Origin: Paucidesulfovibrio longus DSM 6739
Lineage (GTDB): Bacteria; Desulfobacterota; Desulfovibrionia; Desulfovibrionales; Desulfovibrionaceae
Direction: 5' to 3'
Assembly: GCF_000420485.1 (NCBI RefSeq)
Contig: NZ_ATVA01000002.1
Coordinates: 1 to 64,000 of the forward strand
DNA: 64,000 bases
The position numbers and the translations under genes were made by a program. Below, in pieces: positions 32,415-49,709 of the stretch (positions within the stretch are counted from its first letter, which is position 1; each line of letters starts with the position of its first letter). The notes under the pieces were generated by a model. It was not told the origin of the DNA. It did no database searches and worked only from the letters and a program-made list of their open reading frames with translations.

Positions 32415-35400
32415 TTAGCTTGCAAGCTCGGTGAGCTTGTCGGCCTTGCGGATGTTCACGCAGCAGGCCTTGTATTCCGGGATGGTGGTGTTCGGGTCGC
32501 CGACCGAGGGCGTGAGCCTGTTGGTCGAGTCGCCCGTACCGGGGGTGGTCCATCCGAAACAGAAAGGCATGCCGATTTCGTGAATGATCCTGCCGTGCAC
32601 CTTGAGGGGACGCATGCGCACCGTGACCATGGCGAAGGCTTCCACGCGGCCGCGGATGCTCTCGATGATCACGCCTTCGCCGTTCTTGATGCCCTTTTCC
32701 TCGGCCAGTTCCGGGCTCAGTTCCACGTAGAGCTGGGGCTCGGTTTCCAGGAGGTTGGGCACGTTGCGGGTTTCGCCGCCGCCGCACCAGTGCTCCGTGA
32801 CGTTGTAGGTCGTGAGCACGATGGGGTAGCGCGGGTCCGCCGGAGCCGCGAGCAGGTCCATGTCGCTGTTCACGGACTTGTAGCACGGGCTGCTGAGCTG
32901 CTTCGAGAACAGGTTGCTGTCCACCGGAGTCTCGACGGGCTCGTAGTGTTCGGAGAACGGTCCGTCCTGGCGTCCCGGCCCGAAGACCTGGCCGTAGCCG
33001 TGCTTGGACATGATGAAGGGGTTTCTGCCCTTGCCCGTGGACAGGGGCGGCCAGCCGCCGTCGGGCACGTCGCCGACCCACTTGCCGTCCTTCCATTCGA
33101 TGACGGCCTTGGCCGGGTTGTACGGCTTGCCGTTTTCGTCCACGGAGGCGCGGTTGTAGAGGATGCGGCGGTTGACGGGCCAGGACCAGGACCAGTTCGG
33201 GTAGAGCCCGATGTTGGCCTGCATTTCGGTCTGCTCCGCGCTGCGGCGCTTGGACTTGTTCCCGTCTTCCTCGGTGTAGCTGCCCGCGTAGAGCCAGTTC
33301 AGGCTGGCGGTGGAGCCGTCGTCCGCCAGCGCCGTGAACGAGGGCACCTGCTGTCCGGCCTTGTAGAGCTTGTCCTTCACCATGGTGTCCTTGGTGAAGT
33401 GGCCGTTGATGCGCTTGCAGACGTCGTCCGGGTCGTAGGTCGCGGGCCAGTCGAGCTTGAGCACGGCTTCGGGCAGGGTTCCGCCTTCCTTCTTGTACAG
33501 GCCGCGGACGTTGTTGACGATGTCCACGAACATCTGGCCGAAGTTGCGGGCCTCGAACTGCGGCTTGATGGCCTGGTAGTGCCAGAGCAGCCAGCGGCCG
33601 GAGTTGGTCACGGAGCCTTCCTTCTCCAGGCGGTGGGCCGAAGGCAGCAGGAATACCTCGGTCTTGACCTTTTTCGGGTCCACGCCGGGTCGGCGCCAGT
33701 TGTCCGTGGTCTCGGAGTGGTGCAGTTCCGCGGTCACGAGCCAGTCCAGGTTGTCCAGGGCCTTGCGGATCTTGTTCGAGTTCGGCACCGAGTTCATGGG
33801 GTTCAGTCCGATGATGATGCCGCCCTTGATCTTGCCCTGATACATGCGGTCGAAGAGGAACATATAGGAATAGTCCTCGCCCTTTTCGATCTTGGGCAGC
33901 AGCTCGTAGCAGAAGCCGTTGTCCTTGGTGGCGTTCTCGCCGAACCAAGCCTTGAGCAGGCTGGCGAAGTACTTGGGCTTGTTTTGCCACCAGTTGGCCG
34001 AGAGCGGGTCGTGGCTGACCGGGGTGTTGGCCTTGTTGTAGTCCTCGAAGGTCTGCCAGCCGTTGTGCGGCATGGCCATGTATCCGGGGATGATGTGGTA
34101 GAGCAGGGTGTGGTCCGTGGAGCCCTGGACGTTGGGCTCGCCGCGCAGCGCGTTGATGCCGCCGCCGGCCACGCCGATGTTGCCGAGCAGGAGCTGGATG
34201 ATGGCTGCGGAACGGATGTTCTGCACGCCCACGGTGTGCTGGGTCCAGCCCAGGGCGTACATGATGGTTCCGGCCTTGTCCGCCTTGCCCGTGGCCGCGA
34301 AGGCTTCGTACACGCGCCTGAGGTTCTTCTCGGATACGCCCGTGGTGGCGGAGACGTCCGCCAGGGTGTAGCGCGAGTAGTGCTTCTTCATCAGCTGGAA
34401 CACGCAGCGGGGATTCTTCAGGCTGGCGTCGCGCACGGGCACGCCGTCCGCGTCCATCTCGAACTCCCACTTGCTCTTGTCGTAGAGCCGGGTCTTGGGG
34501 TCATACCCCGAGAACAGGCCGTCCTTGAAGTCGTAGCCCTTGCCCACGACCAGGGCCGCGTTGGTGTATTCGGCCACGTACTTCTTGAAGTAGGACTCGG
34601 TTTCGAGGATGTGGTGGATCATGCCGCCGAGAAAGGCGATGTCCGTGCCGGAGCGCAGGGGAACGTGGAAATCCGAGCGGGCCGAGGTCCGCGAGAACTT
34701 CGGGTCCACGTGCATGACCACTGCGCCCTTGTCCTTGGCGCGCAGAACCCACTTGAAAGAGATTGGATGGTGCTCGGCAGCATTGCTGCCCATGATCAGG
34801 ATGGCATCGGCATTCTTGATGTCGATCCAGTGATTCGTCATCGCGCCGCGTCCGAACGACTCTCCCAGAGCCGCAACAGTGGCGCTGTGTCAAATACGAG
34901 CCTGGTGGTCCATGTGGACGACGCCCAGGCCGCGCATGGCCTGGTGGGCGAGCGCGCATTCCTCGTTGTCCGCGTGGGACGTTCCGAGGAGGAACATGGA
35001 TTCGAGGCGGTTGACCGTGTCGCCCTTTTCGTTCTTGAGGATCAGATCCTTGTCGCGGGTGTCCTTGACGCGCCTTGCGATGCGCTCCAGGGTCCACTCC
35101 CAGCTCTTCTCTTCCCACTTGTCGCTGAAGGGCGCGCGGTAGAGCGGCTTCTTCACGCGATGGTGGCTGGTGGTCATGGTGAACATGGCCGCGCCCTTGG
35201 CGCAGAGCGATCCCTCGTTGACGGGGTAGTCCGGGTCGCCTTCGGTGTTCACCAGCTTGCCGTCCTTCACGTAGCCGATGGCGTTGCAGCTCACCGAGCA
35301 GAACGGGCAGACCGTGAAGATTTCCTTGGCGCCGTCGATCTTGAGATCGGCGGCATACGCCTCCACCGGCGTGAGGTCCACGCCGAGCTGGACCAGCCCG

Positions 35401-35456
35401 AAGCCGGCAGCCCCGGCTCCGGCCAGCTTGAGGAAACTCCTCCGATTACATTGCAT
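32415..35456 (-). CDS. fdhA: Formate dehydrogenase alpha subunit with selenocysteine and Tat signal
   Basis: A protein of 1013 residues read through TGA at 34890-34892 as selenocysteine 189 (context DHQARI-Sec-HSATVAALG, the conserved active-site segment). The Tat signal RRSFLKLAGAGAAGFG is followed by a [4Fe-4S] site (CPFCSVSC, SLCAKG) and the bis-pterin-guanine-dinucleotide folds (NADAILIMGSNAAEHHP, YALGWTQHTVGVQ, GLNPMNS). The C-terminal domain has WCGGGETRNVPNLLETEPQL. It oxidises formate or reduces CO2 in the periplasm with Mo or W. The ATG at 35456 lies 6 bases after AAAGGAGG. Translation needs SelB/SelC encoded elsewhere. Confidence 0.96.
34856..34892 (-). promoter_or_regulatory. Selenocysteine UGA codon with SECIS-like hairpin
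   Basis: The in-frame TGA (34890-34892) is followed after 15 bases by GCGGCTCT, loop GGG, AGAGTCGT (34856-34874), which can pair over 8 bp with G-U pairs. A hairpin at this distance within the coding region is what SelB needs in bacteria. The start of the codon context (TGACAC) matches that of E. coli fdhF. Confidence 0.75.
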
Positions 35457-36277: not shown

Positions 36278-38368
36278 CTAGACCTTGCGCACCTCGATGA
36301 AGTGCTCCTGCATGGAGATGGCTCCGCCGGCCTTGTCGTACTTGCCGATGCCCTTGGGCATGAGCTGGTTGTCGGCGACGCCCTTGCCGCGCGCGCGGCT
36401 CTCGCAGGGCAGGGTATGTCCGAATCCGTGGATCATGAAGACGCATTCGGGATGGATGAACGGGGTCACGAAGGCCTTGATGCGGCCCCTGTGTCCGTTG
36501 CTGCCCACTTCCACGTAGTCGCCGTCCGCGATGCCGAGCTTTTCGGCTTCGGTCGTGTTGATCCAGAGCAGGTTCTCCGGCATGCGCTCGTGCAGCAGCG
36601 GGTTGTTGACCGTATGGCCCTGGGTGTGCAGAGCGCAGCGTCCGAAGGCGATGCGGTAGCGGCCCTGGGGCGGGCGTTCCGGGGACTTGTAGGGCGGGAG
36701 CGAGGGCAGCCCGTCCGCGTCCAGCTTGGGCGAGTGGACCTCGATCTTGCCGGAGGCGGTCTTGAACTTGAACTCGTCCATGTTCCGGTAGAGCGGCTTG
36801 TCCGCGAGGCCGACAGAGCCCTTGGCCTCGAAGTCCTCGATGCTCACGCCGGTTCCGTCGAGCTGGAAGTTCCAGACGTCCTCGATCTTGTCGTAGGCCA
36901 GTTCATCGATGCCCATCTTCTTGGCCAGCATGGCGTAGATTTCCCAGATGGCCTTGGTGTCGTGGAGCGGCTCCATGACGCGCTTGCGCATGATGAACGA
37001 GGGCTTCAGGCCGTTCTTGGTGGCCAGGATCGAATCGCGCTCCAGGTAGGGCGAGATGGGCAGGACCACGTCCGCGAACCAGGCCGTGTCGGACCAGGAG
37101 AAGGTCACGGCCACGAGCAGGTCGAGGTTGGCCCACTTCTTCTTCACGTCCTCCACGTCCGGGAAGGCCATGAGGGGGTCGTGGCGGTGGGCGATGTAGG
37201 CCTTGATGGGATACGGCTCGCCCGTGACGATGGCCTCGTAGGCGAGGTTCACCAGTCCGGGACCGGCGTCGTAGTGGGTGCGGCCTTCCATCCAGCCCAC
37301 GCCGTCGGCGCGCTTGGCCTTGGGCTTGGGGAAGAGTTCCATGAAGCTCTTCAGGCCCTTGCGGCCGAAGTCGTCGGGCTTGTTCATGATCGGCAGTCCG
37401 CCCTTGGCCCCGATGCTGCCCAGCAGGGCGTTGATCAGGTAGGCGGTGCGCGACATGTAGAACGAGTCGGAATAGCGGGCGGTCATCCAGCCGGGATGCC
37501 AGATCACGGCGGGGGCGGCTTCGGAAAGCTCGCGGCAGAAGGCGCGGAGCTTTTCGGCGGGCACGCCGGTTTCCTGCTCGGCCCATTCCGGGGTGTAGGG
37601 CTTGACGAACTCCGCGAGCACTTCGAAGTCGTTGAAGTGCTTTTTCACAAAGTCCGCGTCGTAGAGCTTGGCTTCGATCAGCTCGTTGATGACGGCCAGG
37701 TTGAATCCGTAGTCGGTGCCGGGGCGGACCATGAAGAAGTTGTCCGCCTTGGCCGCGGTCACGCTGGCCCGGATGTCGATGCTGGTGATCTTGGCGCCGT
37801 TGGCCACGGCGTCCAGGGTGTTGTTGACCTCGGCGACGTTCACGGCCTCGAAGATGTTCCTGGTCTGGACCACGAGGTGCTTGGTGTTCTTGAGGTCGTA
37901 GGCCACGCCCTTGCGTCCGAATCCGAACACGGACAGGGCCGCGTTCTGCACGTTGCGCGCGCAGGCGGAGTCGTGGTTGTTGTAGTTCGGGGTACCGATG
38001 GCGCGCAAAAACGCCCGGTAGAAGTCGCGGAAGGGACCGCCCCGGTCCGAGAAGAGCACGGCTTCGTCGCCGTATTTCTCGCGGACCGCGTTCAGTTTGG
38101 CGGCCACGTAGTCCAGGGCCTCGTCCCAGCTCACCGCGCGCCACTTTCCTTCGCCCCGTTCGCCCTCGCGGATGAGCGGGGTTTGAGGACGTTCGTTGTC
38201 CTCGGTCAGGGCCACACCCGCCGCACCGCGCGGACAGAGCGCGCCGTTGAGTCCCGGCGCGTGGGGGTTGCCCTGGATATAGACGCAGCGACCGTCCTCG
38301 ACCTCCGCCTCGATGGGACAGCGGACCGAACACATGCCGCAAATGCTGAAAACTTTCTTTCTCGCCAT
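36278..38368 (-). CDS. Cytoplasmic molybdopterin oxidoreductase (DMSO-reductase family, PhsA/PsrA-like)
   Basis: A 696-residue protein with a [4Fe-4S] site (CGMCSVRC, ALCPRG) and the family folds: HDSACARNVQNAALSVFG, where Cys is the likely metal ligand, WHPGWMTARYSDSFYMSR, IYAMLAKKMGIDELAY and a C-terminal pterin domain (GRCALHTQGHTVNNP, DGDYVEVGSNGHRG). No Tat signal: the ATG at 38368 (after GGAGGA) is followed directly by ARKKVFSICG. The relatives reduce thiosulfate, polysulfide or similar; the substrate is not determined. The divergent polyferredoxin is its probable electron-transfer partner. Confidence 0.9.
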   Translation of the reverse strand: MARKKVFSICGMCSVRCPIEAEVEDGRCVYIQGNPHAPGLNGALCPRGAAGVALTEDNERPQTPLIREGERGEGKWRAVSWDEALDYVAAKLNAVREKYGDEAVLFSDRGGPFRDFYRAFLRAIGTPNYNNHDSACARNVQNAALSVFGFGRKGVAYDLKNTKHLVVQTRNIFEAVNVAEVNNTLDAVANGAKITSIDIRASVTAAKADNFFMVRPGTDYGFNLAVINELIEAKLYDADFVKKHFNDFEVLAEFVKPYTPEWAEQETGVPAEKLRAFCRELSEAAPAVIWHPGWMTARYSDSFYMSRTAYLINALLGSIGAKGGLPIMNKPDDFGRKGLKSFMELFPKPKAKRADGVGWMEGRTHYDAGPGLVNLAYEAIVTGEPYPIKAYIAHRHDPLMAFPDVEDVKKKWANLDLLVAVTFSWSDTAWFADVVLPISPYLERDSILATKNGLKPSFIMRKRVMEPLHDTKAIWEIYAMLAKKMGIDELAYDKIEDVWNFQLDGTGVSIEDFEAKGSVGLADKPLYRNMDEFKFKTASGKIEVHSPKLDADGLPSLPPYKSPERPPQGRYRIAFGRCALHTQGHTVNNPLLHERMPENLLWINTTEAEKLGIADGDYVEVGSNGHRGRIKAFVTPFIHPECVFMIHGFGHTLPCESRARGKGVADNQLMPKGIGKYDKAGGAISMQEHFIEVRKV

Positions 38369-38389
38369 GGCTTCCTCCAGAATGCCGTC

Positions 38390-38668
38390 TGTGCCCGAAA
38401 CAGCGGCTTTCTTCTCCTTATACAGCAAAAGCGCGGGGAATCCACGTTTTCGAGGTATTTTGGAGACGACACGATTTCGCTTGATTTACAGGATGTTTCG
38501 CTCAGGCAAAAGACATGTGAAAAAAATAACGTGAGAATGCGGCCCAAGGGGCATTTCCTCCTCTTTTGGGTCGTCAAGCAATGGGAAAAAAATAACGAGG
38601 CCGCATCGACATTGACACATGGGAGGCGATATGGTTCTAGACTGGACTATAGAAGTGTGCCCGAAACA
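38390..38668. repeat. 13-base direct repeat TGTGCCCGAAACA near both divergent start codons
   Basis: Copies lie at 38390-38402 and 38656-38668, 22 and 28 bases from the two start codons. The reverse core TGTTTCG appears once between them. The right copy is inside the GTGTG-N7-CACAC dyad. Probable binding sites of a shared regulator. Confidence 0.6.
38519..38597. repeat. 13-base direct repeat GAAAAAAATAACG
   Basis: Identical copies at 38519-38531 and 38585-38597, 66 bases apart, in the centre of the divergent promoter region. They could be regulator sites or UP-like elements. Confidence 0.6.
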
Positions 38669-38695: not shown

Positions 38696-39142
38696 ATGGC
38701 CGCTTACAGGATCAAATTGGACAAGAGTCGCTGCATCGCCTGCATGGCCTGCCTGGTTCATTGCAAGCAGAAGAACCGGGTGCCGCAGGGACTTTCTTTG
38801 AACAAGCTTTTCGCGGAGCTGGAAGACAAGGACGGCAAGCCCGTGCTCAAGGTCAAATACCAGCCCTGCCTGATGTGCAAGAACCCGGAATGCGTTCCCG
38901 CCTGCCCCACCGGGGCCATGCAGAAGCGCGAGTCCGACGGTCTCGTGTTCATCGACGAAGAGCTTTGCATCGGCTGCGGAGAGTGCATCGAGGCCTGCCC
39001 CTGGGACGTGCCCGTCCTGGACGAGGCGCGGGGCAAGGCCATCAAGTGCGACTACTGCATGGACCGCATCAAGGAAGGCCGCGACCCGGCCTGCGTCACG
39101 GGCTGCACCGCCCACGCGCTCTCCTTCCTGCGTCCGGAATAA
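38696..39142 (+). CDS. Polyferredoxin-like electron-transfer subunit (PhsB/DmsB type)
   Basis: A 148-residue protein with Cys groups CIACMACLVHC, CLMCKNPECVPACPTG, CIGCGECIEACPWD and CDYCMDRIKEGRDPACVTGC, enough for four [4Fe-4S] clusters. No signal peptide. ATG at 38696 follows GAGG. It is divergent from the molybdopterin oxidoreductase, which lacks an electron-transfer subunit on its own strand, so the two likely form a cytosolic complex. A TSUP transporter follows 64 bases later on the same strand. Confidence 0.92.
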   Translation: MAAYRIKLDKSRCIACMACLVHCKQKNRVPQGLSLNKLFAELEDKDGKPVLKVKYQPCLMCKNPECVPACPTGAMQKRESDGLVFIDEELCIGCGECIEACPWDVPVLDEARGKAIKCDYCMDRIKEGRDPACVTGCTAHALSFLRPE

Positions 39143-39206: not shown

Positions 39207-40349
39207 ATGAAATCCAAGAGGCTGTATCTTCTTCTGGCGCTGGCCGTTCTGGCCGTGTGCCTGTTCGCCATGCCCGCGTGGGCCAACGAACGTCTGGTCA
39301 AGGCCATTGCCGAGGCCCAGGCCAACATGCCCGACAAGGTCACCGGCGAAGCCGGCTACCTGGGCATTCCCGGCGGTCCGCAGCTGCAGTGGTGGTGGGG
39401 CCTGCTCTGGGCGATCTGGGTCGGCTGGATCTTCTCCACGGTCGGCGCGTTCGGCGGCATCATGGCCGGCGTCGGCCACATCACCATCTACGGCCTGGGC
39501 GACTACGCCAAGGGCTTCGGCAAGGACGCCAAGCTGAACAAGGTCGTCACCGACTCCATCCGCGTGTCCAACCAGTGGCTGGTGGGCTGCTCCGCGGGTC
39601 TGTCCACCTTCAACTACTGGAAGGCCGGACGCCTCGTGCTGCCCCTGGGCATCGCCCTGGCCATCGGTTCCGTGGCCGGTTCCTGGCTGGTGCCCTGGCT
39701 CACCGCGGGCAAGATCAGCCTGAAGGCCTACCTCGGCTACTTCGGCCTGTTCGTGCTCTTCCTGGGCTGCTACCTCTTCTATGAAACCACCCCGGCCGGC
39801 CAGGGCAAGAAAAAGGCCGCCAAGGCCGCTGCCCAGGCTTTCCAGGAGAGTGTGAAGAAGCAGCGCGAGGGCGGCGAAGTGAACATGGCCGAGATGGGCG
39901 TGAAGGTTCAGAAGTTCACCCCCACCAGCTGCGAGTTCACCTTCTTCGGCGTCGAGTTCAATTTCAACCCGGTCATCCCGGTCATCGGCGGCTTCTTCAT
40001 CGCGGCCCTGGCGTCCTTCCTGGGCGTGGGCGGCGGCTTCCTGCTGGTGCCGTTCCTGACCTCCGTGGCCGGACTGCCCATGTACCTCGTGGCCGGCACC
40101 TCCGCCGCCGCGGTCTTCGTGGGCATGGTCAACTCCATCGCCTCCTACATGGTCCTCAAGGGCACCCCGGTGGAATGGTCCCTCATCGGCGCCGAGCTGG
40201 TGGGCATCGTCATCGGCTCCCTGATCGGCCCGCGCACCTCCAAGTACATCCCGGACATCTGGCTGAAGCGCCTCTTCATCGTCCTGGCCGTGTACGTGGG
40301 CATGCGCTACACCCTCAAGGGCTTCTTCGGCATCAGCATCTGGCCGTAA
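39207..40349 (+). CDS. TSUP (TauE/SafE) family transporter
   Basis: A 380-residue inner-membrane protein. The N-terminal hydrophobic segment (ending AWA) may be a signal or TM helix. Two half-repeats are typical of TSUP: VGWIFSTVGAFGGIMAGVGHI and ALASFLGVGGGFLLVPFLTSVAGLP, the latter near-diagnostic. A polar cytosolic insert (about 195-235; Lys/Glu-rich) separates them. The ATG at 39207 follows AAGGAGGA. TSUP proteins move sulfite, sulfonates, sulfoacetate or, in sulfate reducers, are linked to molybdate/tungstate homeostasis. A substrate related to the adjacent Mo enzyme is plausible. Confidence 0.9.
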   Translation: MKSKRLYLLLALAVLAVCLFAMPAWANERLVKAIAEAQANMPDKVTGEAGYLGIPGGPQLQWWWGLLWAIWVGWIFSTVGAFGGIMAGVGHITIYGLGDYAKGFGKDAKLNKVVTDSIRVSNQWLVGCSAGLSTFNYWKAGRLVLPLGIALAIGSVAGSWLVPWLTAGKISLKAYLGYFGLFVLFLGCYLFYETTPAGQGKKKAAKAAAQAFQESVKKQREGGEVNMAEMGVKVQKFTPTSCEFTFFGVEFNFNPVIPVIGGFFIAALASFLGVGGGFLLVPFLTSVAGLPMYLVAGTSAAAVFVGMVNSIASYMVLKGTPVEWSLIGAELVGIVIGSLIGPRTSKYIPDIWLKRLFIVLAVYVGMRYTLKGFFGISIWP

Positions 40350-40532: not shown

Positions 40533-41180
40533 ATGCTGAGCGAATTCTATTCCTTCATCGACCCCGCGCTGATCGCGCCCTTCCGCTGGCCCGGCAACGA
40601 ATACGCCGGCTTCGCCCTGGGCCTGTTCTGGGTCGCGCTGGTGGCCACGGTCATCGGCGAGCTGTGCATGGCCGGGGTGTATTTCTTCAACCGCGACCAC
40701 TTCGCGGAGATGCGCCGGGAAATGGTCCGGCACAACAATCTTTCCATCCGCGCCCTGGGCTTCAAGGACAAGGCCAGCTACAAGGCGTGCAACTCCATCG
40801 CCAACGAGGAGTTCGGCCGCAATTTCTTCGCGGGCATCGCGCTCTTCGCCTCCTCGGTCTGGCCCGCGTTCTTCGCCATGGGCTGGTTCGACTTCCGCTT
40901 CCGCGGCGTGGAATTCGAGTTGCCCCTGTTCGGCGTCGTGGGCACCGGGTTTCTCTTCGTGCCGATCTACATCCTCACCCGCTACGGCTTCCACAAGGCC
41001 AAGCCCTGGCTGCCGCTCTTCTCCTGGATCAAGAAGAAGGTCGCGGAGAACGAGGCGGGCGAGGAGATGATCACCTATATGGATATCGTCAAGAAGCCGG
41101 AAGAGGAGGGCGCTCCCTCCGAGACGGAAAAGACGAGGAGCAAGAACACCGCCTCGGAAGAGGCAGCGGCCTCGCGCTGA
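40533..41180 (+). CDS. Integral membrane protein of unknown function
   Basis: A 215-residue protein with three hydrophobic segments (about 24-48, 97-117 and 128-150). A charged loop between the first two holds EMRREMVRHNN and GFKDKASYKACNSIANEEFGRNFFAG. The C-terminus is long, polar and Glu/Lys-rich. The layout (TM, basic helical loop, two TMs) loosely recalls the DUF106/EMC3 insertase-like fold, but I cannot support this by motifs. The ATG at 40533 is weakly supported by GAGGAA upstream. It is a single gene between terminators. Confidence 0.75.
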   Translation: MLSEFYSFIDPALIAPFRWPGNEYAGFALGLFWVALVATVIGELCMAGVYFFNRDHFAEMRREMVRHNNLSIRALGFKDKASYKACNSIANEEFGRNFFAGIALFASSVWPAFFAMGWFDFRFRGVEFELPLFGVVGTGFLFVPIYILTRYGFHKAKPWLPLFSWIKKKVAENEAGEEMITYMDIVKKPEEEGAPSETEKTRSKNTASEEAAASR

Positions 41181-41230: not shown

Positions 41231-41267
41231 AAAGCCGCCGCACGCGAGCAACGTGCGGCGGCTTTTT
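41231..41267. terminator. Terminator between the membrane protein and the PH-like gene
   Basis: AAAGCCGCCGCACG, 7-base loop, CGTGCGGCGGCTTT with TT following: a perfect 14-bp stem between convergent genes, best oriented for the plus strand. Confidence 0.88.
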
Positions 41268-41301: not shown

Positions 41302-41811
41302 CTAGCTCGCGTGCTCCTGGACGGCCAGGAGCAGCTCGTCCGGCTTGTCCGGAGCCAGGAGCAGCCGCACCTCGCCCGCGTCCACGAACACGGCCTCGTT
41401 GCTGTTGCCGAGCACGAAGGCCTCTCCGCCGCCCACCAGGGTGAAGGTTCCGCAGCGATACTGGCCGAACTTCATGCCGCGTTTGGTGGATTTGACGGCC
41501 AGCAGGGGGTCGGTCTTCAGGTCGGCGCGGCTGACGCGGGCGACGTCGCTCCAGGGCAGGGCCAAATCCAGGAAAGGAGGGCCGCTGAGCAGCAGGCCGT
41601 CGGCGTCCGCCGTGATCTCGGCGCGGGCGGGGTTGACCAGGAGCATGTACCAGTAGAGCAGGGCCAGGGGACCGGCCACGGCGATGAGGCAGATGCCCGT
41701 CCAGGTCAGGCCCGACCGGAACGACCAGGCCGTGATCGCGGCCACGACCGCCACCGCCAGGATGAAGCCGATGATCACCCAGCGGTTCATGGGTATCCGG
41801 AATACGCGCAT
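41302..41811 (-). CDS. Small membrane protein with bacterial PH-like domain
   Basis: A 169-residue protein (ATG at 41811, 7 bases after GGAGGT; the frame is open further upstream). Two TM helices (about 10-30 and 38-58) are followed by a beta-rich domain (ITADADGLLLSGPPFLDLALPWSDVARVSR, VFVDAGEVRLLLAPDKPDEL) of the PH-like type common in bacterial membrane proteins. No function is apparent. Its neighbours are unrelated. Confidence 0.72.
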   Translation of the reverse strand: MRVFRIPMNRWVIIGFILAVAVVAAITAWSFRSGLTWTGICLIAVAGPLALLYWYMLLVNPARAEITADADGLLLSGPPFLDLALPWSDVARVSRADLKTDPLLAVKSTKRGMKFGQYRCGTFTLVGGGEAFVLGNSNEAVFVDAGEVRLLLAPDKPDELLLAVQEHAS

Positions 41812-41966
41812 TGTACGGACCTCCGCAGTGTCTTTATGGATGCGGAACATAGTACGTTTCCGGCGCGCGGTCAAAAATACGTTGGAATGGTGCGGCCGTT
41901 GGGGTAGACTCGCGGCGGCTGCCCGCGCGTCGCGCTGCGCGGCCAAAAGGGGATCAAGGGGGCTGA

Positions 41967-42938
41967 ATGCAGCGAAAACGGAATGCGGCCTGGGCCGCCC
42001 GCTGGCTTTTCCTCGCCTTGGCGCTCTTCGCGCTGGCAGGGGCTTCGGGCTGCGGCGAGGACGAGCCCTCGGTGCGCGTGAATCTGGCGCACCGCGAGGA
42101 ACTGACGGCCCAACCTCGGCAGGACGCCGTGACCTACGCCTACCTGCCGCAATATTCCCACGCCGTATCCTACGAGCGCCACCGCCAGTTGCTCGAATAT
42201 CTCCGCCGCGAGACCGGCCTGCCCCTGCGCCAGATCTTCCCGGACACCTTCGACGAGCATATCGAGATGGTCCGGCGCGGCGAGATCGACATCTCCTTTT
42301 CCAACCCCTTCGTCTACATTCAGCTCGCCGAGGACGGCGCGCGCGCCTTCGCCCGCATCGTGGAGCCGGACGGCAGGCCCTATTTCCGGGGCCAGATCAT
42401 CTGCCGCGCGGACAACCGCTCCATAAAATCCCTGAAGGACTGCCGGGGCAAGCGCTGGATCGCCGTGGACGCCAACTCCGCGGGCGGCTACCTCTTTCCC
42501 CTGGGTCTTTTTCTGGACAACGGCATCCGCAGGAACGACTTCGCCCAGCTGGCCTTTGCGCCCGGACCGGGCGGCAAGCAGGAGAAGGTCGTGCTTTCGG
42601 TGCATTCCGGCGCCTACGACCTCGGCTCCATCCGCAAGGGAACGCTGGACATTCTCGCTGGCAAGGTGGACCTCTCCAAGATCCGGGTGCTGGCCGAGAC
42701 GCCGGACTATCCCGGCTGGGTCTATTCCGCGCGCAAGGGGCTCGACCCGGCCATCGTCAAGAAGGTGGCCAGGGCCATGTTCGCCCTGGATCCGGGCAGG
42801 CCCGACGACGCGCGCATCCTCTCTGCCGCCGGGGTGCGGGGCATCGTCCCCGCGACGGACGACGACTACGACGCCGTGCGCGAGCTGGCCAGCAAGCTCG
42901 CCGAGGACGGCGCCCTTCCCAGCGTGGTGACGGAATGA
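41967..42938 (+). CDS. PhnD-like periplasmic binding lipoprotein
   Basis: A 323-residue protein with a lipoprotein signal (LALFALAGASGC, Cys29) followed by a PhnD-type fold: VTYAYLPQYSHAVSYERHRQ, HIEMVRRGEIDISFSNPFVYIQLAEDGARA, GKRWIAVDANSAGGYLFPLG and SVHSGAYDLGSIRKG. PhnD proteins bind phosphonate, phosphite or phosphate for ABC import, yet no transporter is adjacent. Its stop overlaps the ATG of a membrane kinase (ATGA), so it likely presents a ligand to that kinase. Confidence 0.9.
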   Translation: MQRKRNAAWAARWLFLALALFALAGASGCGEDEPSVRVNLAHREELTAQPRQDAVTYAYLPQYSHAVSYERHRQLLEYLRRETGLPLRQIFPDTFDEHIEMVRRGEIDISFSNPFVYIQLAEDGARAFARIVEPDGRPYFRGQIICRADNRSIKSLKDCRGKRWIAVDANSAGGYLFPLGLFLDNGIRRNDFAQLAFAPGPGGKQEKVVLSVHSGAYDLGSIRKGTLDILAGKVDLSKIRVLAETPDYPGWVYSARKGLDPAIVKKVARAMFALDPGRPDDARILSAAGVRGIVPATDDDYDAVRELASKLAEDGALPSVVTE

Positions 42939-45091
42939 GGCTCGTGTCGCGTCTGCGGTTCCGTTCCAAGCTGGTGCTGGGCATTTCGGCCATCGTGGTC
43001 TGCACCACCGTGATGCTCACCCCGCTGGTGGCGCGCATGACCGCCACGGCCCTGCTGGACGAGAGCAAGAAGCGCGGCTCCGCCGTGGCCGAGAGCCTTG
43101 CCGCGCGCGCCGTGGACCCGCTGCTCTCCGGCGACCTCCTGCGGCTCAAGAACATGGTCGACGAGGCCGAAAAGCTGGGGGACGAGGTCATCTACGCCTT
43201 CATCCTCGACCAGACCGGCTATGTTCTGGCCCAGACCTTCAAGGGCGGATTTCCCGTGGAGCTGCTCGGCGCGAACCGGGCGGGACCGGATTCCAAGGCG
43301 CGCATCCAGCTCCTGGAAACCGACCAGGGCCGCATCGACGATTTCGCGGCTCCGGTGCGCGTGGGCGGGGCCAATTTCGGCGAGGTCCGCCTGGGGCTTT
43401 CGCGCAAGCCCATCCAGGCCCGCGTCAACGATCTCGTCCTGACCATGAGCACGCTTTCCGGCGGAGCCCTGGCCCTGGCCATCGCCCTTTCCACCATCTT
43501 CGCCAACAAGGTCACCAGCCGCATCGGCCGATTGCGCGAGCACGCCGAGAACATGGTCAAGGGCGACCTGGACCTGCACTCGGCCCCGCCCGCGAACAGG
43601 AACTGCTGGGAGATCATGAACTGCGGGCTGAAGGCCTGCCCGGCCTACAAGGACAGGGACCGGCGCTGCTGGTATCTCGCCGGGACGCTCTGCCCGGACT
43701 GCGCCCACCCGGACGCCTCGAACTATCGCGACTCCTGCCGCCACTGCCCGGTCTATCATGAAAACGCGGGCGACGAGATTCAGGATCTGGCCGAAACCTT
43801 CGACGTCATGGCCCTGAGCCTGAAGACCTACATCAGCGAGCTCAAGGACGCCGAGCGCGTGCTCTCCAACCAGGAGCGGCTCATGCGCACGATCCTCAAC
43901 GTGACCCCGGACCTCGTCTCCCTGGTGGACACCCGCATGATCTACCAGGCCGCGAACACGGCCTTCGCCTCGTTCGTGGGCCGCGACGTGCGCGACATCC
44001 GGGGCAAGACCGACTTCGACCTCTTTCCGGAAGAGATGGCCGAGCAGCGCCACCTGGAGAGCCGCGACATCCTCCAGACGGGCCGCCGCCTGGACCGCCA
44101 GGACTGGATCGTCTCGTCCAAGGGCACCCGCTGGTTCCACACCGTGAGCATCCCCGTGCGCGACCAGGAGGGCCGCATCACCGGCCTGCTGCGCACGGAC
44201 CGCGACCTCACGGACCTGAAACGCTACCAGGAACAGCTCATCCAGTCCCAGAAGATGGAATCCGTGGGCAAGCTCGCGGGCGGCGTGGCCCACGAGATCA
44301 ACACCCCCCTGGGCGTGATCCTGGGCTATTCCCAGCTGCTCATGGAAGACGTGGAGGAGGATTCCCAGATTCACCAGGATCTGGCCACCATCGCCAAGCA
44401 GGCCAAGGTCTGCCGCAAGATCGTGGCCGACCTGCTCGGGTTTTCCCGCCAGGCCGAGAGCGTCAAGCGCGAGATGTGCTTCAACAACTCCGTCATGGAG
44501 GCCGTGAGCCTCGTTCGCCACACGTTCGAGATGGACAAGGTGGAGATCGAGGAACGGCTCGACGATCGGATGCCGATCATTTACGGTGATCCCGAAAAGC
44601 TCAAGCAAGTCTGGATCAACCTGCTCAACAACGCCCGAGACGCCATGCCCGAGGGCGGGCGCATCGTGGTCAAGACCAAGCTGGACACCCCGGCCCAAAA
44701 AGTGACACTCTGGCTGGCGGATACGGGCACGGGCATCGGCGAAGAGGACATGCGGCTGGTTTTCGACCCGTTTTTCACCACCAAACCCGTAGGCAAGGGC
44801 ACGGGCCTGGGGCTTTCCGTTTCTTTCGGCATCATAGAGGACCACGGCGGCGAGATTCGCGCCGAGAGCCCCGCGCCGGAGGAGTTCGCGGACCATTCGC
44901 GGCCGGAGGCCGGGCCGGGCACCCTGTTCATCGTGGACCTGCCCCTGGACCACGCCAGCATGGTCGAGGCGGGGAGTCCCGCCCTGCGGCAGGGGGCGCC
45001 GGGACCGTGGACCGCCGGAACCGTCCGCACAGGAACCACCAAAACGCACATCGCGCGCGAGGCAGAGGAGCAGAAGGGATACAATGGCTGA
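42935..45091 (+). CDS. Membrane sensor histidine kinase with Cys-rich 'two-CW' segment and PAS
   Basis: A protein of 718 residues. TM1 (about 14-34), a periplasmic sensor region (35-165), TM2 (168-190), HAMP, then eight Cys at 224-271 (NCWEIMNCG, CPAYK, RRCWYLAG, CPDC, CRHCP), the 'two-CW' pattern often seen in Desulfovibrio-type signalling proteins and suitable for an Fe-S cluster. A PAS domain (about 312-435) and HisKA with His453 (GGVAHEINTPLG) follow, then HATPase (DTGTGIGEED, DPFFTTK, GTGLGLSVS). The start overlaps the lipoprotein stop (ATGA); the end overlaps the response regulator by 8 bases. Likely sensing: periplasmic ligand plus cytosolic redox. Confidence 0.93.
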   Translation: MRLVSRLRFRSKLVLGISAIVVCTTVMLTPLVARMTATALLDESKKRGSAVAESLAARAVDPLLSGDLLRLKNMVDEAEKLGDEVIYAFILDQTGYVLAQTFKGGFPVELLGANRAGPDSKARIQLLETDQGRIDDFAAPVRVGGANFGEVRLGLSRKPIQARVNDLVLTMSTLSGGALALAIALSTIFANKVTSRIGRLREHAENMVKGDLDLHSAPPANRNCWEIMNCGLKACPAYKDRDRRCWYLAGTLCPDCAHPDASNYRDSCRHCPVYHENAGDEIQDLAETFDVMALSLKTYISELKDAERVLSNQERLMRTILNVTPDLVSLVDTRMIYQAANTAFASFVGRDVRDIRGKTDFDLFPEEMAEQRHLESRDILQTGRRLDRQDWIVSSKGTRWFHTVSIPVRDQEGRITGLLRTDRDLTDLKRYQEQLIQSQKMESVGKLAGGVAHEINTPLGVILGYSQLLMEDVEEDSQIHQDLATIAKQAKVCRKIVADLLGFSRQAESVKREMCFNNSVMEAVSLVRHTFEMDKVEIEERLDDRMPIIYGDPEKLKQVWINLLNNARDAMPEGGRIVVKTKLDTPAQKVTLWLADTGTGIGEEDMRLVFDPFFTTKPVGKGTGLGLSVSFGIIEDHGGEIRAESPAPEEFADHSRPEAGPGTLFIVDLPLDHASMVEAGSPALRQGAPGPWTAGTVRTGTTKTHIAREAEEQKGYNG

Positions 45092-45443
45092 AATCATAGT
45101 TGTGGACGACATTTCCGACGCCGGGATTCTGGTCAAGCGCATTCTGGAACGCAAGGGGCACACGGTGTTCGCCTTCACCGAAGAGGAGGAGGCCATTGCC
45201 CACGCCGCGACCAGCAAGCCCGACCTCGCCATCCTGGACATCAAGCTCAAGAAGATGACCGGGGTGGAGGTGCTCGAGGAACTCAAGAAGGTCAATCCCG
45301 ACATCAAGGCCATCATGCTCACCGGCTACCCCACGCTGGAAACGGCGCGCGAGTCCCTGCGCCTGGGCGCGAGCGAGTATTGCGTCAAGCCCATCGACAA
45401 GGACGAGCTGGAGGCCAAGGTTGCCGAAGTCCTGGAAGGCTAG
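45084..45443 (+). CDS. Single-domain response regulator
   Basis: A 119-residue receiver with acidic DD at 8-9, phosphoacceptor Asp52 (LAILDIKLKKMTG), Thr in MLTGYPT and Lys in YCVKPID. No output domain. It overlaps the kinase end by 8 bases and is followed 21 bases later by the PEP-synthase-like gene, so it may relay phosphate or signal to that enzyme or to the phosphatase beyond. Confidence 0.94.
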   Translation: MAEIIVVDDISDAGILVKRILERKGHTVFAFTEEEEAIAHAATSKPDLAILDIKLKKMTGVEVLEELKKVNPDIKAIMLTGYPTLETARESLRLGASEYCVKPIDKDELEAKVAEVLEG

Positions 45444-45464
45444 CCGGGAGGCGGGTGCGCGCGC

Positions 45465-47924
45465 GTGATCATCGCCGAACTCTTCAAGCACTGGACCTAC
45501 CAGGTCTTTGCGCCCGGAGCGCTCCTGCGCAGCAAGTACAACGCCTTCAAGGAGCTGCTGGAGTACGACGACCGCTGCCTGGAGGGCATCGCCGACCTTG
45601 AGGAGATCGCCTACGGGCGGGAAAAGGCGGACTGGGCGCGCATGAGCCGGCTGAGCCGCCAACTGACACGCGACGTGGGCGAAATGGTCCGGCGGCTGAA
45701 GATCATGGGCCCCTCGCGCTACGTGGGCCTGCCCGACTACTACAACAAATTCCGCTTTTACGTGAGCATGGGCATGGACATGCCCGACCCGGCCATTGCC
45801 CCGCCCCATGTCATCGGGCTGGAGGAGGCCGCGGACGTGCCCCTGCTCGCAGGGGGCAAGGCGCGCAACGCCGGGCTCATGGCCGCCGAAACCTATCTCA
45901 ACGTGCCGCCGGGCTTCGTGGTCACGTCCAACGCCTTCAACTACTATCTTGAAGCCAACGGGCTGCGCCCGGAGCTGGACGAGCTGCTCGGCAGGGTCGA
46001 GCTGTCCCGCCCGGCCGAGCTGGAGCGGCTCTGCGCCGAGATGCGCACGCTGGTGCTGTCCGGCTCGGTGCCGCCCCCCATCGCTTCGGAAATGGAGCGC
46101 CGCGCGCACGAGCTCGCGGGCGAGGGCGGCGCGCTGGCGGTGCGCTCCAGCGCCGTGGCCGAGGACGGCGAACTCTCCTTTGCCGGGCAGTACGAGAGCA
46201 TCCTGCCCGTGGACCCGGCCCTGACCCTGGAAGCCTACAAGCGCGTGCTGGCCGGGAAATACGCGCCCCGCGCCGTGACCTACCGCATTCTCAACGGCCT
46301 CAGCGACGTGGAGACGCCCATGGCCGTGCTGGTCATGCCCGTTGTCGAGGCGCGGGCCGCCGGCGTGGTCTACACCCTGGACATGGACCGCACCCAGGCC
46401 GTCTGCGGCATGCTCTCCATCTACGCCGTGCCCGGAGTGGGCGAAAATCTCGTGGGCGGCAAGTCCGTTCCGCAAATCTACTGCCTGACCCGCGAGGCGG
46501 ACCCGCTGCTCGTGCAGGAGCCCGGCGAGTCCGCAGTGCTCGACCCGGAGCAGGCGGCCGAGGTGGCCAAGGCGGCCCTGGAGCTGGAGCAGATGTTCGG
46601 CGAGCCCCAGGACGTGGAATGGGCCATGGACCAGCAGGGCAAGCTGCACATCCTGCAATCCCGGCCCCTGGGCGGGGGACACAGGATCGCCTCCGCACCG
46701 GAAAGGCCGGCCCCGCCCGACGCCCGGCTTCTGCTCGCGGACGCCAGCCGCGCTTCCGCGGGCGCGGCCCATGGCCGGGTCTTTCATTTCGTTCCGCCGG
46801 GCCACACCCTGGAGGACATCCCCCGCGACGCCGTGCTCGTGGTCGGCGCGCTGGACCCGGCCCTGGCCGGAGCCGTGGGCAAGATCCGCGGCGTCATCGC
46901 CGAGGCGGGCAGCCGGGCCAGCCACTTCGCCTCGGTGGCGCGCGAATTCGGCCTGCCCGTGCTCGTGGGCGTGGAGGACGCCTTCGAGCGCTTTTCCGCC
47001 GGGGGCGAGGTCACGATGGACGCGGACACCGGCTCGGTCTACGAGGGGCTGGTGGAGAGCCTGCTCCTCGCGGAGGAAAAGGCCCCGCGTTCCAGCCCGG
47101 CCCTGGAGCGGCTGCGGCAGGTCATGCCGCACATCGCCCGGCTCACGCTCACGGATCCGGAATCCCCTGAGTTTTCACCTGAAAAGTGCCATTCCCTGCA
47201 CGACATCGTGCGCTTCTGCCACGAGAAGGCCGTTTCGGAGATGTTTCTGCTCGTGGGCAGGGGCGGGCGCGGCCTGGGCGCGGCGCGCAAGCTGGAGTCC
47301 GGCCTGCCGCTGGTCATGTACCTGCTGGACGTGGGGGGCGGCTTTTTCGACCAGGCCAAGGACAAGGACACGGTCACGCCGGACGACATCAAAAGCCCGC
47401 CCATGTGGTCGCTCTGGCAGGGGCTTTCGGACAAGGAAGTGGTCTGGCACGACGGGCTCACGCACATGGACTGGGAGGAGTTCGACCGGGTCAGCGCGGG
47501 CATCTTCAAGCACGACTCCGCGCTCCTGGCGAGCTACGCCGTGGTGGCCGAGGACTACGCCCATCTCATGGTCCGCTTCGGCTATCATTTTTCCCAGGTG
47601 GACGCGCTCTGCGGGCCGGACGCGCGCAAGAACTACGTCAATTTCCGCTTCAAGGGCGGCGGCGGGCTGATGCACCAGCGCGAGCTGCGCCTGCTCTTCC
47701 TGCAGCGCGTGCTGGAGGCCGAGGGCTGGAAGGTGCGCGTGCGCGGCGACCTGCTCGACGCGGCCACCGGGGGCCGGAGCGAAGCCGCGACCCAGAAGCA
47801 GCTCTTCCTGCTCGGCCGTATTCTTGGCCGCACCCGGCTCATGGACATGGGCCTGGAGGACGAGCGCCACGTGGAGCGGCTGGTGGAGGAATTTCTGAAT
47901 CCGCCCGCAGGGAACGAATACTGA
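45465..47924 (+). CDS. PEP-synthase-like protein: ATP-grasp and phosphohistidine domains, novel C-terminus
   Basis: An 819-residue protein with GTG start after GGGAGGCGGG. An N-terminal helical region (1-105) is followed by a PPDK_N/ATP-grasp domain (about 110-405): VPLLAGGKARNAGL, LAVRSSAVAEDGELSFAGQYES, EWAMDQQGKLHILQSRP. Then comes a PEP-utilizers swivel domain (about 440-530) with catalytic His487 in EAGSRASHFASVAREFGLPVLVG. The PEP-binding TIM barrel of PpsA and PPDK is missing; the last about 290 residues match nothing I know. ATP-dependent phosphorylation of the His is likely, but the acceptor cannot be PEP/pyruvate in the usual way; compare rifampin phosphotransferase, which also lacks that barrel. 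Confidence 0.85.
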   Translation: MIIAELFKHWTYQVFAPGALLRSKYNAFKELLEYDDRCLEGIADLEEIAYGREKADWARMSRLSRQLTRDVGEMVRRLKIMGPSRYVGLPDYYNKFRFYVSMGMDMPDPAIAPPHVIGLEEAADVPLLAGGKARNAGLMAAETYLNVPPGFVVTSNAFNYYLEANGLRPELDELLGRVELSRPAELERLCAEMRTLVLSGSVPPPIASEMERRAHELAGEGGALAVRSSAVAEDGELSFAGQYESILPVDPALTLEAYKRVLAGKYAPRAVTYRILNGLSDVETPMAVLVMPVVEARAAGVVYTLDMDRTQAVCGMLSIYAVPGVGENLVGGKSVPQIYCLTREADPLLVQEPGESAVLDPEQAAEVAKAALELEQMFGEPQDVEWAMDQQGKLHILQSRPLGGGHRIASAPERPAPPDARLLLADASRASAGAAHGRVFHFVPPGHTLEDIPRDAVLVVGALDPALAGAVGKIRGVIAEAGSRASHFASVAREFGLPVLVGVEDAFERFSAGGEVTMDADTGSVYEGLVESLLLAEEKAPRSSPALERLRQVMPHIARLTLTDPESPEFSPEKCHSLHDIVRFCHEKAVSEMFLLVGRGGRGLGAARKLESGLPLVMYLLDVGGGFFDQAKDKDTVTPDDIKSPPMWSLWQGLSDKEVVWHDGLTHMDWEEFDRVSAGIFKHDSALLASYAVVAEDYAHLMVRFGYHFSQVDALCGPDARKNYVNFRFKGGGGLMHQRELRLLFLQRVLEAEGWKVRVRGDLLDAATGGRSEAATQKQLFLLGRILGRTRLMDMGLEDERHVERLVEEFLNPPAGNEY

Positions 47925-47931
47925 GGCGCGC

Positions 47932-49020
47932 ATGGCCGAGAACAAGCCCGCATACAAGCTCGACTGGGTCACGGACCATCTGGCCGTGGGATATGCGCCC
48001 ATGTCCGTGGCGCAGCTCGACTCCCTGCACGAGCAGGGCGTGGACGCCATTTTGAATCTCTGCGGCGAGTTCTGCGACCTGCACGACATCGAGGCCGGGC
48101 ACGGCTTCGAGGTCTACTACATGCCCCTGCACGACGAGGAGGCCCCGGACCTGGCCGAGCTGGAAAAAGCCCTGGAATGGCTGGACGAGTCCATCTACCT
48201 GGACAAGCGCGTGCTGATCCACTGCCGCCACGGCATCGGCCGCACCGGCACGGTGCTCAACGCCTACCTGCTGCGCCGGGGCCTGGGCCACAAGCTCGCG
48301 GGCCGCACCCTGCGGGGGCTGCGCTCCAAGCCGGCCAACTTCGACCAGTGGTGGGCCATCCGCAAGTACGGCCGCAAGAGCGGCAAGCTGACCCTGCGCG
48401 AGCCTTCCCTGGAGTTCAAGCATCTCGTGGATCTCGCCCCGTACTTCCAGGACTACGAGGCGCTGGTGCGGCGGGCCGAGGATCTCTTCGACTACGAGGC
48501 GTCGGAATCCGCCGAGCGCAAGGCCCAGGGCCGCTGCGGCCTGAACCACGACCGCTGCTGCCATACTCCGGTCCGGCTGAGCCTTGTGGAGGCGGTCTAT
48601 GTGGCGCACAAGATCAACGCGCAGCTGACCAGCCAGGAGCGGCTCGACGCCATCGGCCGGGCCGTGGCCACCGCGGGCAAGGAGCGCGCCGAACAGGCCC
48701 GGCACGAGGGCCGCGAGGTCTGCCTCGCCGAGGCCGGGGCGCTCTGCCCCCTTTCGGTGGACGGGCAGTGCTCCATCTTCCCGTACCGCCCGCTGCAATG
48801 CCGCTCGTTCGAGCTTTCCGAGGAGGTCGCGAACGAGCTGTGGGAAGACCTGCTCGCGCCGGAGCTGGACAAAGGCTCCCGCGACCTGTTCTTCTCCTTC
48901 ACGTCCGAGTTCCCGGCGGAGGCGGCCATGTTCTTCGCCCTGCCGGACGTGGTCTCCGGCCGCTACGTCCAGACCTTCTTCCATTACATGATGCAAAAGA
49001 GCAAGAAACAGCCCGCATGA
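47932..49020 (+). CDS. Dual-specificity phosphatase fused to YkgJ-type Cys cluster domain
   Basis: A 362-residue protein. A dual-specificity protein phosphatase domain (about 8-150) has the signature HCRHGIGRTG with nucleophile Cys98 and Arg104, and Asp68 as possible general acid. The C-terminal half (about 190-350) has a YkgJ/CxxCxxCC-like metal cluster: CGLNHDRCCH, then CPLSVDGQCSIFPYRPLQCRSF. YkgJ proteins bind zinc or an Fe-S cluster. The gene starts 7 bases after the PEP-synthase-like gene and overlaps the next (ATGA). It may remove a phosphate placed by its neighbour, gated by metal or redox state (inference). Confidence 0.88.
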   Translation: MAENKPAYKLDWVTDHLAVGYAPMSVAQLDSLHEQGVDAILNLCGEFCDLHDIEAGHGFEVYYMPLHDEEAPDLAELEKALEWLDESIYLDKRVLIHCRHGIGRTGTVLNAYLLRRGLGHKLAGRTLRGLRSKPANFDQWWAIRKYGRKSGKLTLREPSLEFKHLVDLAPYFQDYEALVRRAEDLFDYEASESAERKAQGRCGLNHDRCCHTPVRLSLVEAVYVAHKINAQLTSQERLDAIGRAVATAGKERAEQARHEGREVCLAEAGALCPLSVDGQCSIFPYRPLQCRSFELSEEVANELWEDLLAPELDKGSRDLFFSFTSEFPAEAAMFFALPDVVSGRYVQTFFHYMMQKSKKQPA

Positions 49021-49709
49021 CGTCGGCACGCCCCCTTTCCGAAAAGATCGACGCGGCCCTGAACCTTCTGAACGGGCTTTGCCGCGCGCATGGGCCGCAG
49101 CGGGTGGCCGTGGCCTGGACCGGGGGCAAGGATTCCACCGTGGCCCTGGATCTCTGGCGGCGGACGCTCGCCGGGTGCGGCGCTGGTGCGGCCGCGCGCG
49201 TCCTTTCCGTGGATACCGGGCTGAAGTTTCCGGAGGTGGTCGCGTTCCGGGACCGCTGGGCGCGGGAGTGGAAACTGGATCTGACCGTGGCCCGGCCGGA
49301 AATGGAGCTGCGGGGCTATGCCGTGGCCGTGGACAAGGTGGCCTGCTGCCGCGACCTCAAGGTGCTGCCTCTGCAACGGGTCGTGCGGGAGCAGGGGCTG
49401 GCCGTTCTGATTTCCGGATTGCGGAGCGACGAGCATCCCAGCCGGGCCGCGCGCGCGGCCCTGGAGCCGCGCGAGGCGGGGCAAGGATGCGTCTATGCGC
49501 AGTGCAATCCGCTCCTGGACTGGAGCGAGATGGAAATCTGGGCCTACCTGACCGGCCGGAACCTGCCTTTCTGCGAGCTGTACGCCCAGGGCTACCGCTC
49601 CCTGGGCTGCGTGCCCTGCACCTCGCGTTCGGGCCGGGGCGAACGCTCTGGCCGCGCCGCGGACAAGGAAGCCCAGCTCGATACCCTGCGTTCGCTGGGG
49701 TACTTCTAG
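49017..49709 (+). CDS. PAPS-reductase-family (ATP pyrophosphatase fold) protein
   Basis: A 230-residue protein with PP-loop AWTGGKDSTVAL, then LSVDTGLKFPEVVAFRD, a CC pair (VDKVACCRDLKVLPL), the ISGLRSDEHPSRA motif and a late CVPCTSRSGRGERSG. This is the PAPS/APS reductase fold. True assimilatory APS reductases carry CC...CXXC with Fe-S, and a similar pattern (CC and CVPC) is seen here, so an APS-reductase-like or related adenylyl-sulfur role is possible. It overlaps the phosphatase fusion by ATGA and closes the operon. Confidence 0.87.
   Translation: MTSARPLSEKIDAALNLLNGLCRAHGPQRVAVAWTGGKDSTVALDLWRRTLAGCGAGAAARVLSVDTGLKFPEVVAFRDRWAREWKLDLTVARPEMELRGYAVAVDKVACCRDLKVLPLQRVVREQGLAVLISGLRSDEHPSRAARAALEPREAGQGCVYAQCNPLLDWSEMEIWAYLTGRNLPFCELYAQGYRSLGCVPCTSRSGRGERSGRAADKEAQLDTLRSLGYF

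Follow-up and report, generated by a model that had tools for sequence, protein, structure and literature searches.

We analysed a 64,000-nucleotide window of the Paucidesulfovibrio longus DSM 6739 genome (contig NZ_ATVA01000002.1, positions 1 to 64,000), in which six genes, here called A to F, lie in close succession on one strand (Table 1). An earlier note on this DNA had described six genes of particular kinds spaced by at most 28 bases, and the description is borne out: all six open reading frames are present, with junctions that are in order an overlap of 4 bases, an overlap of 8, a gap of 21, a gap of 7 and an overlap of 4, and domain searches match the kinds of protein claimed (Phosphonate-bd, a kinase, a lone receiver, a protein like phosphoenolpyruvate (PEP) synthase, a dual-specificity (DSP) phosphatase and PAPS_reduct, for reductases of phosphoadenylyl sulfate (PAPS)). 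Farther upstream lie genes for a molybdoenzyme, an iron-sulfur subunit, a TauE/SafE permease and mem215, a small membrane protein; PsrA, used in the table beside PhsA, is what we take to be a name for this type of molybdoenzyme. Handles beginning with L and G denote loci and genomes, respectively, and all counts of conserved residues include the window sequence.

Table 1. Genes of the unit and its neighbours, in window coordinates.
Gene product	Position	Strand	Remark
PhsA/PsrA-type molybdopterin oxidoreductase	36278..38428	-	Divergent from the rest of the unit; best NCBIfam match PhsA
4Fe-4S electron-transfer subunit (PhsB/DmsB-like)	38696..39142	+	DMSO_dmsB 115 bits (cut-off 214); Fer4_11
TauE/SafE (TSUP) anion permease	39207..40349	+	PF01925; corresponds to DVU0251/Dde_0598 in order and domain
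mem215, small conserved membrane protein	40533..41180	+	Corresponds to DVU0250/Dde_0600 in position
A, PhnD/PtxB-type periplasmic binding lipoprotein, probable oxyanion sensor	41967..42938	+	PF12974, 213 bits
B, sensor histidine kinase (sCache, HAMP, two-CW, PAS, HisKA, HATPase)	42935..45091	+	Domain search (sCache_3)
C, stand-alone receiver without output domain, 119 residues	45084..45443	+	PF00072 only
D, PEP-synthase-like phosphotransferase, GTG start	45465..47924	+	PPDK_N and PEP-utilizers
E, dual-specificity phosphatase fused to a helical Cys-rich CxxCxxCC-like domain	47932..49020	+	DSP phosphatase
F, PAPS-reductase-family protein, genus-level neighbour	49017..49709	+	PF01507, 130 bits

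Genes A to E are conserved as a unit among sulfate-reducing bacteria. Among 16 loci picked by hand across the order, two of them from the genus of the window, A-B-C-D-E stand in this order in 13 and D and E are adjacent in all 16; the exceptions are a locus in which the block is split (L066), one in which D-E alone were recognised (L064) and one with D-E plus distant kinase and receiver matches (L063, 35 and 28%). TauE and mem215 were each recognised in 10 of the 16. In a larger set of 80 named loci (the best 80 of 224, a good many truncated), D and E sit side by side in 74; two of the other six have no room for the pair and four do have room (L122, L130, L135 and L136). Recognition across the 80 was 40 for A, 53 for B, 59 for C, 32 for any TauE, 18 for the PhsA-like enzyme and 1 for F; among the 36 loci that extend 9.5 kb or more to either side it was 24 for A, 29 for B, 32 for C, 34 for D, 21 for any TauE and 13 for the PhsA-like enzyme. 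The whole A-B-C block precedes D-E in 33 of the 80; in others it lies downstream, three times on the same strand and three times on the opposite one. Because the block occupies several positions around D-E, the link has evidently survived rearrangement. Since the order recurs in many genera it is not due to chance. A gene order unique to this genome, which the earlier note had set against its own proposal, is ruled out by this recurrence, and its other counter-case, separate and unrelated partners for D and E in relatives, did not occur in either set of loci. Of its six-gene unit A to E thus stand together, F falls outside, and the unit starts further upstream, with TauE, mem215 and in some genera the PhsA-like enzyme.

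Strong matches to E go together with dsrA. Relatives of E occur at an E-value up to 0.001 in 182/199 genomes of the order, the weaker matches covering only part of E, mostly its Cys-rich half, and exceed 250 bits in 111/199 (hand count); of the 88 genomes without a match above 250 bits, 71 have a weaker one, among the matches listed mostly to the Cys-rich half alone. Across the phylum the corresponding numbers are 238/394 at an E-value up to 0.001 and 47/394 above 200 bits (hand count). dsrA (E-value up to 1e-60) is present in 46 of these 47 genomes, the exception being G463, versus 204/394 overall (Fisher's exact test, P about 2e-13, relatedness not corrected).

F has a different history. It adjoins E in all three genomes of the genus, that of the window and those labelled G001 and G002, and is present in 46/61 genomes of the order (E-value up to 1e-15), yet in the 22 F-bearing genomes outside the genus that we compared, F and E lie on different contigs or more than 100 kb apart, and among the 80 named loci F was recognised beside E only once (L072, the same record as G002). 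This census rules F out as a core member; it came to lie beside E within this genus. F has a CC + CxxC cysteine spacing, which we take to be that of assimilatory adenylyl-sulfate reductases, and we saw no C-terminal catalytic cysteine motif in it. The pathway as first read by the earlier note, in which all six genes cooperate and F supplies a sulfur or adenylate step, draws on the 4-base overlap of E and F and on the succession of the two genes in all three genomes of the genus, but the separation of F from E in the compared genomes outside the genus makes it highly improbable.

The earlier note also knew of no described pathway with this set of genes. The set has in fact been described, as the nitrate cluster of Desulfovibrio vulgaris (DVU0251-DVU0245) and Desulfovibrio alaskensis (Dde_0598-Dde_0605), although no mechanism was given for it (Korte et al. 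2014, PMC4001038). Both clusters hold seven genes, for a TauE permease, a small protein, a PtxB-like protein, a kinase, a receiver, a protein like pyruvate phosphate dikinase (PPDK) and a dual-specificity phosphatase, with equal order and domains. Lengths are 963, 588, 360, 2235 and 1110 bp for DVU0251, DVU0250, DVU0247, DVU0246 and DVU0245 (PMC4001038), compared with 1143, 648, 360, 2460 and 1089 bp in the window. The window differs in the appended F and in the PhsA-like enzyme and iron-sulfur subunit directly upstream. Judged by gene order and domains, it is near certain that the window unit from TauE to E is the nitrate cluster, and the gene set is therefore one already known by phenotype and not by mechanism.

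That phenotype is informative. Isolated D. vulgaris insertion mutants in DVU0251, DVU0250, DVU0247 and DVU0246 grew in 100 mM nitrate as they did without nitrate, and the DVU0245 mutant, which lacks the counterpart of E, was inhibited like the control (PMC4001038). In D. alaskensis pools, mutants in all seven genes gained on nitrate (2.08 to 3.51), and in the D. vulgaris pool the phosphatase mutant lost (-6.04; PMC4001038). Korte et al. suggest a leaky thiosulfate transporter and mention, as an unpublished result, that mutants of G20 show mild sickness on thiosulfate (PMC4001038); "putative thiosulfate transporters" are the words of a later paper (PMC9723548). PhsAB of D. alaskensis, encoded at another locus (Dde_1076:1075), is slightly important on thiosulfate (Price et al. 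2014, PMC4215793).

The genes upstream of A bear on the nature of the anion. TauE/SafE scores 96.2 bits against PF01925 (gathering score 32.6), and mem215 has no Pfam family at an E-value up to 0.01 and nothing reaching a cut-off at an E-value up to 1. The PhsA-like enzyme scores 544.8 bits against PhsA (PRK15488; cut-off 694), the next NCBIfam family being at 256.9, and its closest solved structure is the thiosulfate reductase 2vpw (379.6 bits; next 164.5). No twin-arginine signal was seen by eye in its reading, so the enzyme is predicted to be cytoplasmic and its anion would need import. In 7 of the 18 loci where it was recognised (L117, L123, L130, L142, L143, L144 and L146) it directly follows a relative of B or C, in a different arrangement and in distant genera.

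D consists of a helical N-terminus (residues 1-112), an ATP domain (112-403), a swivelling histidine domain with His487 (420-533) and an unassigned C-terminal domain (about 543-819). Pfam finds only PPDK_N and PEP-utilizers in it, the PEP/pyruvate barrel being absent. His487 is invariant in 64/64 sequences and the C-terminal domain is strongly conserved, with His586 and His708 invariant; family searches at an E-value up to 1 with the N-terminus and the C-terminus returned no match reaching a cut-off. Scores against curated families are 213 and 231 bits for PEP synthase (TIGR01418 and PRK06464; cut-offs 740 and 598) and 160 bits for rifampin phosphotransferase (NF041857; cut-off 999). A profile built from D, two orthologues and four paralogues of this genome is matched by full-length relatives to about position 853 of 862 and by classical PEP synthases only over about 114-566. 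The scores, the absent barrel and the profile coverage rule out that D is an ordinary PEP synthase; a separate PEP-synthase-type match in this genome (C12:375237-376646) covers only profile positions 114-564.

The predicted model of the whole of D (mean predicted local distance difference test score (pLDDT) 88.6, predicted template modelling score (pTM) 0.77) best matches rifampin phosphotransferase 5hv3 over residues 112-528 (Z 37.0, 397 aligned, root-mean-square deviation (rmsd) 3.2) in fold searches that covered residues 113-542 of D and 3-155 of E; PEP synthase and PPDK were also found, and the histidine domain matches Enzyme I of the sugar phosphotransferase system (Z about 11-16, 101-121 aligned). 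PEP synthase, PPDK and rifampin phosphotransferase share with D an ATP domain and a swivelling phospho-histidine domain, but the first two have the PEP/pyruvate barrel, which D lacks, and D falls far below the curated cut-offs. Rifampin phosphotransferase has the domain order ATP, substrate, histidine, whereas in D the histidine domain directly follows the ATP domain and the extra domain comes last. Enzyme I likewise has a phospho-histidine domain, with a PEP barrel where D has its ATP domain. D belongs to a distinct family, new here, that is barrel-less, keeps His487 and has an unassigned C-terminal domain.

Members of this family often lie near anion permeases. All five full-length members in this genome have a TauE or SLC13 permease in their neighbourhood (TauE in the window, L053 and L054, SLC13 in L055 and both in L052), and the four paralogues L052 to L055 lie near receivers as well. 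In 40 D loci from other genomes, taken from the top of the D-profile list with the window genome and near duplicates skipped (6/40 are shorter than 13 kb), TauE or SLC13 occurs within about 7 kb of D in 27, a receiver is within reach in 30 and a kinase in 27; the median gap from D to the permease is 1074 bases. By comparison, 20 classical PEP-synthase loci, from lower rows of the same list and including one that matched the E profile, have a permease in 0/20, a receiver in 8/20 and a kinase in 3/20, and a permease is likewise found in 0/20 histidine-kinase loci (for ten of the D-locus genomes, the first two rows that are not near D and have more than 7 kb between them and the contig start). 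The association has P about 2e-11 against both controls, relatedness not corrected. The first permease profile had been rebuilt with hits from the sampled loci; one made from window-genome seeds alone gave the same permease counts at three thresholds. A search of open-licence papers found no description of an anion-transport role for this D-type PEP-synthase-like family. Two of the paralogous loci hold further membrane proteins, an Alph_Pro_TM protein between TauE and D in L054 and an NhaB-like antiporter in L052. At L169 (10235-15152) a pair of D genes has no TauE or SLC13 and its neighbours resemble cobalt/nickel transport (a CbiM-like start, by eye), so the D family may also serve other transporters.

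The structural match to 5hv3 also suggests that D could be a metabolic enzyme, phosphorylating a small molecule (the imported anion, say, or something derived from it) in the manner of rifampin phosphotransferase, with E as a recycling phosphatase and the two-component genes only tuning the reaction. The conserved C-terminal domain, with its invariant His586 and His708, could hold such a substrate. Two permease families and many receivers near the D family, however, fit a protein partner better than a single substrate, and we know of no phosphorylated sulfur anion of this kind; we regard this explanation as rather improbable.

E combines a phosphatase domain (residues about 5-150, catalytic Cys98) with a helical Cys-rich domain (about 169-360). 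Cys98 is kept in 78/78 sequences, and the loop HCRHGIGRTG is invariant or nearly so, the dual-specificity signature HCxxGxGRTG being present together with the fold. The predicted model (pLDDT 91.4, pTM 0.83) matches the phosphatase Tk-PTP (5z5a) over residues 5-150 with Z 20.7, 144 aligned and rmsd 1.9. The Cys-rich domain scores 17.9 bits against CxxCxxCC (YkgJ-type, PF03692), below the gathering score of 23, and six cysteines are each conserved in 72 to 78 of 78 sequences; that it holds a metal cluster is a guess. The Cys-rich half also exists as separate proteins (for example G000:C15:260999-261442).

On the sensor side, A resembles binding proteins for oxyanions. Among solved structures PtxB comes first (77 bits), and HtxB, ArrX (43 bits) and AioX (28 bits) are relatives too; N-termini that look lipobox-like by eye occur in 37 listed relatives of A. 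In B, the Cys-rich stretch scores as a two-CW domain (NF045718, 37.4 bits, cut-off 35), six of whose cysteines are kept in 38/38 sequences; an iron-sulfur redox input through it, as the earlier note supposed, is a guess. Asp52 of C is kept in 59/59. In L060 and L102 the match to kinase B is broken into two parts, which gives the impression of an interrupted gene (L083 is the same record as L060).

This arrangement recalls AioXSR and ArrXSR, in which a PhnD/PtxB-family binding protein is likewise followed by a kinase and a receiver beside a molybdoenzyme. ArrX and AioX bind the substrate of their own molybdoenzyme, and the modules act on transcription (PMC5908839). By analogy, A-B-C-D-E might control gene expression by phosphorylation or titration of a transcription factor whose gene lies elsewhere, with TauE one of the controlled genes and D and E setting the level of a phospho-protein or metabolite that the factor reads. 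The closest sensor modules do work in this way (PMC5908839), nine sigma-54 operons of D. vulgaris carry TSUP or PSE transporters (PMC4641369), and one D paralogue (L053) adjoins a sigma-54 activator. AioR, however, has an output domain acting on a sigma-54 promoter, whereas C is a receiver only and is followed by a PEP-synthase-like protein and a phosphatase that AioXSR and ArrXSR lack, and it is D that is found with permeases. On this argument, made without a census of DNA-binding neighbours, we consider transcriptional control unlikely.

We tentatively favour, at slightly under an even chance, a route that begins with A and B sensing an oxyanion, runs through C to D, and ends with D, opposed by E, spending ATP to make the TauE permease work. 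Lipoprotein A would bind a sulfur oxyanion in the periplasm, most likely thiosulfate, and drive kinase B in the way that AioX and ArrX drive theirs. B would phosphorylate the lone receiver C, which would then dock on D and switch it on. D would pass phosphate from ATP to His487 and, via its C-terminal domain, to an acceptor whose charging lets the permease, with mem215, take up the anion; phosphatase E would reverse the D step, and the PhsA-like enzyme, where it adjoins the unit, would reduce the imported anion in the cytoplasm. Nitrate would enter through the same permease, so that loss of TauE, C or D gives nitrate resistance, and since E would reverse the D step its loss would not block uptake. 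We infer the ligand, the contact between C and D, the phosphate acceptor and the direction of E. That D acts on the permease after translation we likewise infer, because C lacks an output domain, TauE, C and D share a mutant phenotype, and the neighbour statistics link D to permeases.

A sulfur oxyanion is the likely ligand, and thiosulfate is the probable anion. The substrate might instead be sulfite, sulfate or another oxyanion, moving in or out, with nitrate as a side substrate. Sulfite export gave the permease family its name, phosphite binders are the closest to A, and the growth defect on thiosulfate is mild and unpublished (PMC4001038). A PhsA/PsrA-type enzyme adjoins the unit in several lineages, however, and nitrate resistance upon loss argues for entry and not exit, which leaves another substrate somewhat unlikely, if less so than transcriptional control.

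Several observations weigh against ATP-driven enabling of TauE for thiosulfate uptake. The nearest solved relatives of A, PtxB and HtxB, bind phosphite, and the PhsA-like enzyme stays below the PhsA cut-off and went unrecognised in 62/80 loci, many of them truncated. Any TauE was recognised in only 32/80 window-type loci, or in 21 of the 36 that reach 9.5 kb or more each way. A, E and mem215 were found in 0/40 of the sampled D loci, so these contain paralogues of the window D and the permease statistic concerns paralogues; 13 of the 40 have no TauE or SLC13 in reach, two of them on very short contigs (L177 and L193). The association of D with permeases could reflect shared metabolism, action of D on the permease being our own extension of it, and because the loci are related by descent the P values overstate their independence. 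Mutant data conflict in places: loss of E raises nitrate fitness in D. alaskensis (+2.08), unlike in D. vulgaris, DVU0250 scores -5.82 in the pool, opposite to its resistant isolate, and the D. vulgaris kinase is annotated as a pseudogene whose insertion mutant has little or no advantage (PMC4001038). Given the pseudogene and the weak effect, B may not be needed there.

A broader reading of the D family is that it is a general, ATP-charged counterpart of Enzyme I, a phospho-histidine protein switched by lone receivers and phosphorylating or energising TauE/SafE and SLC13 permeases in sulfate reducers, the window type adding a phosphatase as off switch. We consider this a long shot, but if true the Enzyme I-like family would be a phosphotransferase system for anions. 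More immediately, the gene-neighbourhood evidence makes a testable pathway out of a mutant cluster that had lacked an explanation and gives a PEP-synthase-like family a likely role in anion transport. It bears on two open practical questions, the uptake and sorting of sulfur oxyanions by sulfate reducers and the reason why simple mutations can defeat nitrate treatment against souring.

Other features of the window lie around the unit. Between mem215 and A, a small gene on the minus strand (41302-41946), divergent from A, was recognised in 7/80 named loci (38-65% identity), four of them from Pseudodesulfovibrio, and a terminator-like hairpin of 15 pairs (41231-41265, minus strand) marks its end. 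Because of this gene and hairpin, TauE-mem215 and A-F are probably separate transcripts. The reading at 32415-35456 (minus strand) looks by eye like a formate-dehydrogenase-like protein with a twin-arginine start, and an in-frame TGA at residue 189, in the context RIUHS, makes it a probable selenoprotein.

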